DNA from: Pyrinomonadaceae bacterium
GTDB taxonomy: Bacteria; Acidobacteriota; Blastocatellia; Pyrinomonadales; Pyrinomonadaceae
Assembly (NCBI GenBank): GCA_014380365.1
Contig: JACMJZ010000032.1
Span: 168,860 to 232,859, forward strand
Reading direction: 5' to 3'
Length of the DNA: 64,000 nucleotides
The notes beneath the pieces were generated by a model. That model worked only from the letters and a program-made list of their open reading frames with translations, was not told the origin of the DNA and searched no databases. Of the stretch, positions 59,641 to 64,000 are shown one piece after another (positions within the stretch are counted from its first letter, which is position 1; every line of letters starts with the position of its first letter). A program made the translations under genes and the position numbers.

Positions 59641-59727
59641 GCCGGAGTGGCGAAATTGGTATACGCACCAGACTCAAAATCTGGCGAGGTCAAACTCATG
59701 TCGGTTCGAGTCCGACCTCCGGCACCA
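59641..59727 (+). tRNA. tRNA-Leu (anticodon CAA)
   Basis: 87 bases including an encoded CCA. The 7-bp acceptor stem is gccggag with ctccggc, the anticodon stem ccaga/tctgg holds the loop CTCAAAA with CAA, and the T arm has ggttcgagtcc. A long variable arm (gaggtcaaactc) fits a class II leucine tRNA. The last 29 bases also encode, on the opposite strand, the C-terminus of the integrase gene. Confidence 0.95.
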
Positions 59728-60928
59728 CACCTCTGTTCATTCCTGAGTAAATCACCGCATCTTTCGGAATCGTGTCCAAACCGAGTCCAAGAGTTTCATT
59801 CCCAGCAAACTTTTCAAGCACATCCATAGCCTGGTCCTTGCTCTCGGTTGATGCGTGTCCGTAGTGCAGAATCAGCGATTTGTCGGTGTGCCCGGTGATA
59901 GATCCGATCGTGGCCAGGTCACGGCCGGCTTGGAGCATTCGGGTGACGGCAGTATGGCGCGCGTCGTGAGTAACAAAGCCACCAACTACCTCCCGGCCGT
60001 AGGCAACGTCTGTCGCTTCGCATGCTTCTCTGAGAATCTGATAGTAGTAAGTGACTTCACCACCGGCGCGGGTAAAGACGTAAGAGCCTCGCGACTCAAT
60101 TTCACGTTCGCGCAATATCTCAGCCAGGGTGTCCGTGATTTTCAGATACCGAACTGTTTGCTCCGAACGGTGCTCAGTCTTTGTCCCGACGACTTGCATT
60201 ACCATCGCGCCCCAGTCCACCTGATTCCATCGCAACTTGCAGAGCTCGCCTTTCCTGGCGCCCGTCAACAGTGCCGTGCGGAACACGTGGCCAACATTGC
60301 GACGATTTGCGGCTTCTGATTCAGTCTCACCATTGCGTTGTGAGGCGTATAGCCAGGTCAGCACTCGGATAACTTCCGCAGCTGAGATGACTCGCTCGCG
60401 CTTTCGTTTTGATTGCTTCGGCCTGGGCAACTTCGGCATGGCCCAGTTCTTCAGAGCAGCGAAATGCACCGGTCCCACGTGCAGCGCCGCCGAGACGATA
60501 TTTAATTCCCGATTGATACTAGAAGCGCTCAGTCCGTCCTTCCTTCGTTTGTCGACAAACCGTTGAAGATCTTCAGTCTCCAGCTCAGGGATGCGGCGGA
60601 CGTCGGGCAGCTCGTCACATAACGTTTGCAGCACGCGCCTGGCTCTAACCTGCTCGCGCCCGTTCGCTATCAGATCCAATTTCTTGTCGCAAACTTCGCG
60701 GAGAGTGGGGGCTTCCTTTGGTATAACGAAGCCATAGCGGATCTCTTTCTCAAAGGCGCGCACGCGCGCAACTGCAGATTCAGCATGAGCCCGACTGGCA
60801 AAGCCGGGCTCGCGTTTTCGACGGCCGTCTTCGAGGCGAATATCAAAGCCCCAAGAATAATATTTTTTCAGTCGAGCATCGTATTTCCAGCCCGAACGAT
60901 TCTTGTTGGAATAGAATTTCTTGATCAT
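59696..60928 (-). CDS. int: Tyrosine recombinase (integrase) of an integrative element
   Basis: 410 residues. The phage-integrase catalytic set is intact: Arg225 in TGARKGELCKLRW, Lys250, His321/Arg324 in HDARHTAV, His347 in GHTD and the nucleophile Tyr356 in LHYGHAS. The N-terminus has a short arm-type DNA-binding segment. The gene ends inside tRNA-Leu(CAA), and its last residues (PEVGLEPT) are encoded by the tRNA 3' end, so integration into this tRNA defines the attachment site. The excisionase-like gene lies upstream with a four-base overlap. The other end of the element is beyond the window. Confidence 0.93.
   Translation of the reverse strand: MIKKFYSNKNRSGWKYDARLKKYYSWGFDIRLEDGRRKREPGFASRAHAESAVARVRAFEKEIRYGFVIPKEAPTLREVCDKKLDLIANGREQVRARRVLQTLCDELPDVRRIPELETEDLQRFVDKRRKDGLSASSINRELNIVSAALHVGPVHFAALKNWAMPKLPRPKQSKRKRERVISAAEVIRVLTWLYASQRNGETESEAANRRNVGHVFRTALLTGARKGELCKLRWNQVDWGAMVMQVVGTKTEHRSEQTVRYLKITDTLAEILREREIESRGSYVFTRAGGEVTYYYQILREACEATDVAYGREVVGGFVTHDARHTAVTRMLQAGRDLATIGSITGHTDKSLILHYGHASTESKDQAMDVLEKFAGNETLGLGLDTIPKDAVIYSGMNRGVVPEVGLEPT
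59700..59727. other. Predicted attachment site half (attL) in tRNA-Leu
   Basis: The tRNA T-arm and acceptor 3' end, shared by tRNA and integrase gene, is the usual crossover region for tyrosine recombinases that use tRNA genes. No second copy of this 28-base text occurs in 59,728-64,000, so the right end must lie outside the window. Exact core not determined. Confidence 0.55.
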
Positions 60929-61173
60929 TGGCGAACAAGGCGCAAGACGTCATTTCGTTGGCGGGCATCATCGATTAATTTTCGACGGTGGGCAATGATT
61001 TCACCGCGAACCAAAAACAACTTGCGGCCCTGATGCACGACGGTAAGATTAGCAGTGCCAGCTGAACGCTTGCGAATGGTAGAAGGATCCAGCCCCAGCA
61101 GTTTCGCTGCTTCGCGCAACGGAATGAGGGCTTCCAAATCTGACTCGACTGCTCGTAGTGAATTCTTATCCAT
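60925..61173 (-). CDS. Excisionase-like helix-turn-helix protein
   Basis: 82 residues from an ATG at 61173; the frame is open further to a GTG at 61209. It has a MerR/excisionase-type helix-turn-helix (IPLREAAKLLGLDPSTIRKR). A protein of this size beside the integrase, with ATGA overlap, is the expected arrangement for a recombination directionality factor or its regulator. Confidence 0.7.
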   Translation of the reverse strand: MDKNSLRAVESDLEALIPLREAAKLLGLDPSTIRKRSAGTANLTVVHQGRKLFLVRGEIIAHRRKLIDDARQRNDVLRLVRQ

Positions 61174-61209
61174 TTTGCGCAGGCGCCGATCCTCCCGGCC
61201 CTGGGCCAC

Positions 61210-61359
61210 CTAAGTGCAAATGGTTGGCCACTCGATTCCTAATGAAAAACGCGCGTCATTGGACCACGAAAACAATGAGAGGTGATGGGTTTCCCCGCTA
61301 TGACACAAATAACGACAAATAAAGATGCGGGATTTTCCCTCAATGGTGATTCGATTCAT
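61210..61359 (-). CDS. Small hypothetical protein
   Basis: 49 residues beginning at an ATG at 61359 with GAGGAGG five bases upstream, which is a strong site for such a small frame. It has Cys, His and aromatic residues (ICRYLCHSGETHH) that might be a zinc site. The larger ORF that contains this start overlaps the next gene and is unlikely. It lies between the excisionase and the zinc-ribbon gene on the same strand. Function unknown. Confidence 0.45.
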   Translation of the reverse strand: MNRITIEGKSRIFICRYLCHSGETHHLSLFSWSNDARFSLGIEWPTICT

Positions 61360-61390
61360 CGCAACCTCCTCTGCGCGTTGTCGGATGGAC

Positions 61391-61735
61391 CTACGCGGCC
61401 TCTGGTTCGGGTCTGTAACCAACGATGTTGCGAGTGCCAAAAAGATGCCGCGCGTCATAGACCGTGCTCGGCCGCCGTCGCTGCTTTTGGCGGCGGGCGC
61501 CGACACCGCAGTGCGCAATGTAAGTTTCCACGTGCGCTTGAGTGCAACCCGCCTCGCATTCAATCACCAGCTCGTTAGAGTTCCACCTAACAGCCAATCT
61601 AACGCGCTGCTCTGCGTGCAACGGGCACCACGCTCGAAAAGAGCGCCCCAAGCTACCACTGACAAGCCTGATGTCGGACAGACCCCTGTTGGGCCTGATA
61701 CGCGCCAATGTGTTTAATGCTTCGGATACCTTCAT
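61391..61735 (-). CDS. CHC2-like primase zinc-ribbon protein, stand-alone
   Basis: 114 residues from the ATG at 61735. Cys37, His40, Cys60 and Cys64 (CPLH ... CEAGC) are laid out as in the CHC2 zinc ribbon of DnaG and phage primases, and the surrounding strands (RLAVRWNSNELVIECEAGC) fit. The Toprim and helicase parts are missing, so it is a truncated or accessory zinc ribbon that may bind single-stranded DNA for element replication. It lies between the HTH gene and the Rep gene. Confidence 0.6.
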   Translation of the reverse strand: MKVSEALNTLARIRPNRGLSDIRLVSGSLGRSFRAWCPLHAEQRVRLAVRWNSNELVIECEAGCTQAHVETYIAHCGVGARRQKQRRRPSTVYDARHLFGTRNIVGYRPEPEAA

Positions 61736-63367: not shown

Positions 63368-63519
63368 GCGCTTAGCAAGAGCTACGCCTTGTCTGGTTTC
63401 AGCCTCAGCTGTTGTTTGCGAATGAATGTGTCGGCTCGCATTTCTACTTGCCGACGAAGGGACGGGCGACTATCATGGAGATGTCGCACGCGCTGCCAAC
63501 ATCAGCGAGTGTTTGGACC

Positions 63520-63572
63520 GACCGCCTGTGGCCCTTGATCCCTAGACAAGATTTCTAGGACCGCAGGCGGCC
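63520..63572. other. Candidate rolling-circle origin hairpin (or terminator)
   Basis: gaccgcctgtgg pairs with ccgcaggcggcc (10 of 12 pairs plus one G-T), with an inner stem cctag/ctagg around a nine-base loop. It lies 150 bases upstream of the Rep start, a typical place for a double-strand origin, and is followed by a T run (ctttt) that could also make it a terminator on the plus strand. A nick site was not identified. Confidence 0.4.
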
Positions 63573-63600
63573 TTTTCGTAAAACCCAAAAAGAACGAATT

Positions 63601-63876
63601 TCAAGTGACCAGTCGTCTTAGTTTCGCTGCGAACCAAGCCAGACCTACGATTAAGCGCAGCCAACCACTGCCGCCCCTTCCAGCGGTGTCTTGAGGACTC
63701 GACAAATTTCCCCAATCACGATAACGAGGATCTACCGGCACCACGTCTCCATGTGCATTAACCGTCGCGTCTACCCAAATCACCCACCCACGACGGGACG
63801 GATCTTGAACCGAAATCTTTAGCGCTCCAGCGATCCCCTCCGACGTCTGAACGCCAGCGTAATAATTCCAACTCAT
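63601..63876 (-). CDS. Small protein with C-terminal membrane helix
   Basis: 91 residues starting at the ATG at 63876, with GGACGAAAG as a plausible ribosome binding site. The N-terminal two thirds are soluble and rich in Asp, Ser and Tyr; residues about 72-85 (LRLIVGLAWFAAKL) form one membrane helix followed by a basic end. The gene follows the coat-like partial gene by 16 bases and may be a minor coat or assembly protein of a phage, or an unknown membrane protein. Confidence 0.5.
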   Translation of the reverse strand: MSWNYYAGVQTSEGIAGALKISVQDPSRRGWVIWVDATVNAHGDVVPVDPRYRDWGNLSSPQDTAGRGGSGWLRLIVGLAWFAAKLRRLVT

Positions 63877-63892
63877 CTTTCGTCCGTCCTTA

Positions 63893-64000
63893 CTAATCGA
63901 GCCACCAATCCAACAAAAACAGCGTTAACGCGCCGACTACAACCACCGCGACGATCGAGCCGGCGGCCGGCGTAACGCCATCGCCCCATGACGATACGGA
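63893..64000 (-). CDS. C-terminal part of a small single-helix protein, filamentous-phage coat-like
   Basis: The frame is open from base 64000 to a TAG at 63895-63893 (35 residues visible). It ends with AGSIVAVVVVGALTLFLLDWWLD: acidic and Gly/Pro residues, then one membrane helix. This is the layout of the mature region of inovirus major coat proteins, though the usual basic C-terminal end is missing and the start is outside the window. A bare single-helix membrane protein is an equally possible reading. Confidence 0.35.
   Translation of the reverse strand, partial: SVSSWGDGVTPAAGSIVAVVVVGALTLFLLDWWLD

Follow-up and report, generated by a model that had tools for sequence, protein, structure and literature searches.

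An integrative element with rolling-circle replication genes and a putative envelope-linked module at tRNA-Leu(CAA) of a Pyrinomonadaceae bacterium

Here we report that the right end of the window, the whole 64,000-nt stretch of Pyrinomonadaceae bacterium (Acidobacteriota) DNA that was analysed (G000:C8:168860-232859), is a delimited integrative element of 9.4 kb with rolling-circle replication genes. A preliminary description of this DNA had proposed a rolling-circle element integrated at tRNA-Leu, possibly filamentous-phage-like. The integrated element is confirmed by a tRNA-overlapping integrase, a Rep_1-type Rep and a pair of attachment sites, and with good confidence we regard the 9.43-kb unit as an integrative rolling-circle element that carries a small envelope module and is not an inovirus. 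The host genome is a draft, 95% complete. The region to the right of the window was read on the same contig as locus L002, in which a position equals the window position minus 59140; the features, from the tRNA to the distal attachment site, are as follows.

59641..59727, plus strand: tRNA-Leu(CAA), the integration target (ARAGORN)
59710..59727: attL core GTCCGACCTCCGGCACCA, the last 18 bases of the tRNA (exact 18-bp direct repeat)
59696..60928, minus strand: tyrosine integrase, 410 aa, ending ...VPEVGLEPT inside the tRNA (Phage_integrase 1.1e-18; PHROG integrase 1.6e-51)
60925..61209, minus strand: 94-aa HTH protein, excisionase candidate (weak HTH/excisionase matches; 4-base overlap with the integrase start)
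61391..61780, minus strand: 129-aa protein with a CHC2-like zinc-ribbon pattern, CPLH...CEAGC (start codon uncertain)
61901..63367, minus strand: HUH rolling-circle replication initiator Rep (Rep_1), 488 aa (Pfam Rep_1 1.7e-12)
63520..63572: imperfect hairpin upstream of rep, candidate double-strand origin, containing CTTGATC at 63534-63540
63601..63876, minus strand: 91-aa protein (no family match in Pfam or PHROG)
L002:4753-5295, minus strand: Phage_lysozyme2 protein of ~180 aa with a C-terminal membrane anchor, the anchor being window 63893..64000 (Pfam 6.1e-11)
L002:5309-5722, minus strand: 137-aa C-anchored protein (hydropathy)
L002:5754-7076, minus strand: 440-aa helical-type protein
L002:7138-7383, minus strand: 81-aa acidic protein
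L002:7495-8040, minus strand: 181-aa protein
L002:8037-8240, minus strand: 67-aa HTH_17 protein (Pfam HTH_17; 1.2e-6 and 2.7e-7 for the two HTH_17 proteins of the element)
L002:8319-8753, plus strand: 144-aa protein
L002:8757-9017, plus strand: 86-aa HTH_17 protein (the second of the two Pfam HTH_17 proteins)
L002:9352-9792, plus strand: possible 146-aa ORF, doubtful
L002:10002-10019 (extrapolated window 69142-69159): attR core, exact 18-bp copy of GTCCGACCTCCGGCACCA

The second exact copy of the tRNA 3′ end, which had been anticipated somewhere to the right, lies 9,432 bp from the first, and the limits of the element are therefore placed at about window position 59710 and extrapolated position 69159. 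From base composition, about 9e-7 chance copies of this 18-mer are expected per 20 kb. Both features of a tRNA-targeted integrative element are present, namely an integrase adjoining the tRNA and direct repeats at both ends, and the integrase does end within the tRNA as first described. When the predicted circle is closed at the att core, the integrase ends in VPEVGRKRKKR instead of VPEVGLEPT, its reading frame stopping six codons after VPEVG; this prompt stop is consistent with a functional attP, as it is with the chance occurrence of a nearby stop. We ascribe integration and excision to the integrase, and rolling-circle replication to Rep, because of the protein families to which they belong. 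A tRNA-Leu-specific tyrosine integrase would insert the element at the 18-bp tRNA 3′ end, leaving the tRNA intact, and would cut it out again as a circle, probably with a small HTH protein acting as excisionase. The protein previously called excisionase-like, the 94-aa one, does carry an HTH but its excisionase match is weak (PHROG, E 0.015). Likewise, the primase-type zinc ribbon can be retained as a CPxH...C...C pattern in the 129-aa protein but not as a family assignment, no match being found in Pfam, PHROG or NCBIfam. A search for defence-system cargo gave no more than a weak match of the small HTH protein to mad1.

The identification of an HUH Rep stands on its profile match (PF01446, 47.8 bits against a gathering score of 33.2) and on the motifs HTHIH at residues 146-150 and KYITK at 277-281, which conform to HxHxH and KYxxK; H146, H148 and KYxTK are invariant in both four-row alignments of Rep relatives. 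Its structure model is of low confidence (pLDDT 48), and Foldseek gave no match at E<=0.001. Rep would nick the circular form and so drive rolling-circle replication; a plausible nick site is the hairpin with CTTGAT that immediately precedes the rep gene. Initiators of the pC194 type nick at CTTGATA. The hairpin at 63520-63572 is suggestive of a double-strand origin: of 200 shuffled versions of the intergenic sequence upstream of rep, none folds as well as the native one, but the motif alone is not significant, CTTGATM occurring at 8 sites in 20 kb against 4.8 expected. The HUH Rep with HxHxH and KYxxK and the candidate CTTGAT origin motif resemble those of pC194-type plasmids with Rep_1 (PF01446). 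The element differs from these in being chromosomally integrated with an integrase of its own, and its Rep, at 488 aa, matches plasmid records only weakly (Macrococcus Rep proteins alone, 28% identity, E 5e-3) and phage records or viral contigs not at all.

The pI/Zot morphogenesis ATPase is the only conserved marker of the Inoviridae (PMC6813254), and the preliminary description had expected to find it beyond the window. No Zot/pI family match occurs before attR, in the ~9.7 kb beyond it (to about L002:20000) or, for Zot, in the draft host genome. Neither within the element nor across the next 9.7 kb does any credible gene contain a P-loop or Walker A motif; a six-frame Walker A scan gave two matches in the element, both in frames overlapping other ORFs, and none further to L002:20000. 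The search that found no Zot in the host genome detects it in four genomes of the same family and is therefore able to see such a gene. The lack of Zot up to the second att site is the outcome that the preliminary description had itself named as refuting its filamentous-phage reading. The small coat-like membrane proteins of the first description also resolve differently: the hydrophobic segment at 63893-64000 (minus strand) forms the membrane anchor at the C-terminus of the ~180-aa lysozyme, and the 91-aa protein has no segment at the transmembrane (hydropathy) threshold used. Several single-span coat proteins of 30-90 aa were looked for on the element and not found, clear anchors being confined to the lysozyme and the 137-aa protein; one further ORF, of 34 aa, scores for a membrane span but lacks supporting context. 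None of the ORFs searched has a terminase or capsid family match. An integrase, a rolling-circle HUH Rep, small hydrophobic proteins and small size are all traits shared with integrative inoviruses, but neither the stretch up to attR nor the draft host genome has pI/Zot, the array of 30-90 aa single-membrane coat proteins is missing and a lysozyme is there instead, and we consider a filamentous phage provirus highly improbable.

A satellite that uses the coat of a helper, for example an inovirus satellite lacking its own Zot, would also be a small integrated replicon with a Rep and no morphogenesis ATPase, and a Zot gene does lie beside inovirus-like ORFs in a genome of the same family (G457). 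Against this, no Zot match was obtained in the draft host genome and such a satellite would not be expected to carry a lysozyme, which leaves this explanation quite unlikely. The G457 locus (L098, G457:C54), in which the Zot gene adjoins a 399-aa Gly-rich C-anchored protein and a 99-aa membrane protein, is in its own right an inovirus-like cluster in a same-family MAG, with contamination possible.

Read on the minus strand from attR towards the tRNA, the element consists of the 67-aa HTH_17, 181-aa, 81-aa, 440-aa, 137-aa, lysozyme and 91-aa genes, the hairpin, and the Rep, 129-aa, 94-aa and integrase genes. The stretch that opens with the 67-aa HTH gene and closes with the 91-aa gene, with its C-anchored lysozyme, C-anchored 137-aa protein and helical-type 440-aa protein, may constitute an envelope-linked module serving transfer or a virion. 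The best matching domains of the lysozyme in viral contigs are 54-66% identical, and the genes surrounding these domains, where read, are mostly tape-measure-like, which makes tailed phages the probable source of the domain. It differs from the tape-measure lysozymes of tailed phages (Phage_lysozyme2) in forming a stand-alone protein of ~180 aa that is anchored at its C-terminus and accompanied by no tail genes, and it has no relative in other genomes of the class. The 440-aa protein yields a low-confidence, mainly helical structure model and has no relative in 162 class genomes, viral contigs or phage records; the 181-aa protein has no relative in viral contigs. The C-anchored lysozyme is the feature that neither a plasmid-like nor a viral reading fully explains.

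In small Firmicutes plasmids, Rep_1 initiators have a further role in mobilization by ICEBs1 (PMC5357655), and for this reason the mobilizable and the viral readings both stand. Under the former, which upholds the integrative plasmid allowed for in the preliminary description, Rep would be the initiator and perhaps a non-canonical relaxase, the conjugation machinery would come from another element, and the lysozyme would help to open the wall; we hold it tentatively, as somewhat short of an even chance. No capsid gene was found on the element, and a Rep_1 relative is encoded with an integrase and a repressor-like protein on an integrated island (L014, G378:C1:1860000-1879999), where it adjoins genes resembling a coupling ATPase and a relaxase, with further ORFs resembling conjugation membrane proteins (all as read from ORFs). 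Judged as an integrative and mobilizable element (IME), the element has Rep_1 but matches no canonical relaxase family, and the optional coupling protein (TcpA/VirD4) is absent, as is any other ATPase or credible P-loop. Its lysozyme, moreover, is of phage type, and with no N-terminal hydrophobic segment called it would therefore face the cytosol. Among described systems, Streptococcus IMEs with rolling-circle-type relaxases (PMC5357655, PMC5704250) likewise combine a tyrosine integrase in the 3′ end of a conserved gene with a rolling-circle initiator, whereas the present element has no coupling protein that we could find, Rep_1 rather than MobT/Rep_2, and an anchored lysozyme.

The viral reading takes the element for a tailless provirus with an unrecognised virion, of which the C-anchored lysozyme and the 137-aa protein would be membrane or entry proteins. 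That a membrane-anchored phage lysozyme domain adjoins another C-anchored protein argues for it, and so does the closest Rep relative found, which sits on virus-like contigs of 17-21 kb in two Acidobacteria MAGs (L006, 16,865 bp; L020, of which 18,450 of 21,287 bp were covered) together with an integrase and several C-anchored proteins. These two contigs are identical at 15,995 of 16,342 aligned bases and encode, besides the integrase and the Rep_1 relative, a 543-aa protein, a HicAB-like pair, a transglutaminase-like protein and a run of C-terminally anchored proteins; L006 ends with 240-aa and 207-aa proteins, L020 starts with a fibre-like repeat protein, and nearly all of the genes lack family matches. 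On the other hand, only Rep and the integrase are common to L006 and the window's element, profile alignment gave no match between the 440-aa protein and the 543-aa protein of L006, and neither Rep nor the 440-aa protein has a match in phage records. The element may carry a capsid of an unrecognised type, but it offers no capsid candidate, its sole large protein of no recognised family being the mainly helical 440-aa protein. We regard the viral reading as possible but doubtful. Small ssDNA phages of the Obscuriviridae (PMC8776804) similarly pair a replication initiator with a cell-wall hydrolase on a small genome; an integrase is not listed among their core genes (PMC8776804), whereas the element has one, shows no recognised structural gene and has a Rep and a 440-aa protein that match no phage record. 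The more far-reaching proposal, that the element and L006/L020 would belong to a loose, undescribed group of temperate tailless viruses of Acidobacteriota, with Rep_1 replication, virions of C-tail-anchored membrane proteins and a lysozyme as entry enzyme, seems to us unlikely.

The Rep family is rare, being found in 2/396 genomes of the phylum, the host included, by single-sequence search and in further members by profile and genome-contig scans, the collection scans relying on short peptide patterns that miss distant relatives. At a contig end in Pyrinomonadaceae (L015/L019), Rep, an HTH-like ORF and an integrase are arranged as in the window, and in an Acidobacteriaceae MAG (L021:1374-6007) a Rep_1 relative is followed by three consecutive tyrosine recombinase genes. 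Among the collections searched there is no complete syntenic relative of the element.

Sequence comparison with congeners indicates that the tRNA-Leu(CAA) site is a recurrent integration target in the genus: the same tRNA-Leu holds a 77%-identical integrase in G474 (L043:5862-6891) and an integrase remnant in G477 (60% over 45 aa; L044:328-585). In two other congeners, G197 and G471, wzc, tRNA-Leu and the right flank are collinear without the insert. In the host genome the conserved right flank does not restart until about L002:19740 when compared with G471, or 20240 when compared with G197, and ~9.7 kb of other DNA separates attR from it. Taken as an empty site, the right flank of congeners shows that an insertion took place but gives no clean 9.4-kb gap. 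This DNA (L002:10020-19740) codes for a dienelactone hydrolase, a putative carbonic anhydrase and unknowns; it may be an island that entered the same tRNA earlier. Its presence right of attR would allow a larger compound island, albeit no extra att copy occurs in it. A larger element with Zot beyond attR was considered and, to about L002:20000, is not found, the genes there looking ordinary or unknown. In other congeners the dienelactone hydrolase gene is located elsewhere. Between wzc and tRNA-Leu lies a ~130-bp sequence (window 59445-59584, L002:305-444) that is a dispersed, partly palindromic repeat, with about 30 or more copies in the host genome at roughly 72-92% identity, some on the opposite strand.

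On this replicon, in which no virion or conjugation gene is recognised, a lysozyme domain of phage tails has been put to new use in a membrane-anchored protein. Should it prove to be a virus, the element would be a sign that Acidobacteriota host small temperate viruses of a kind not yet sampled.
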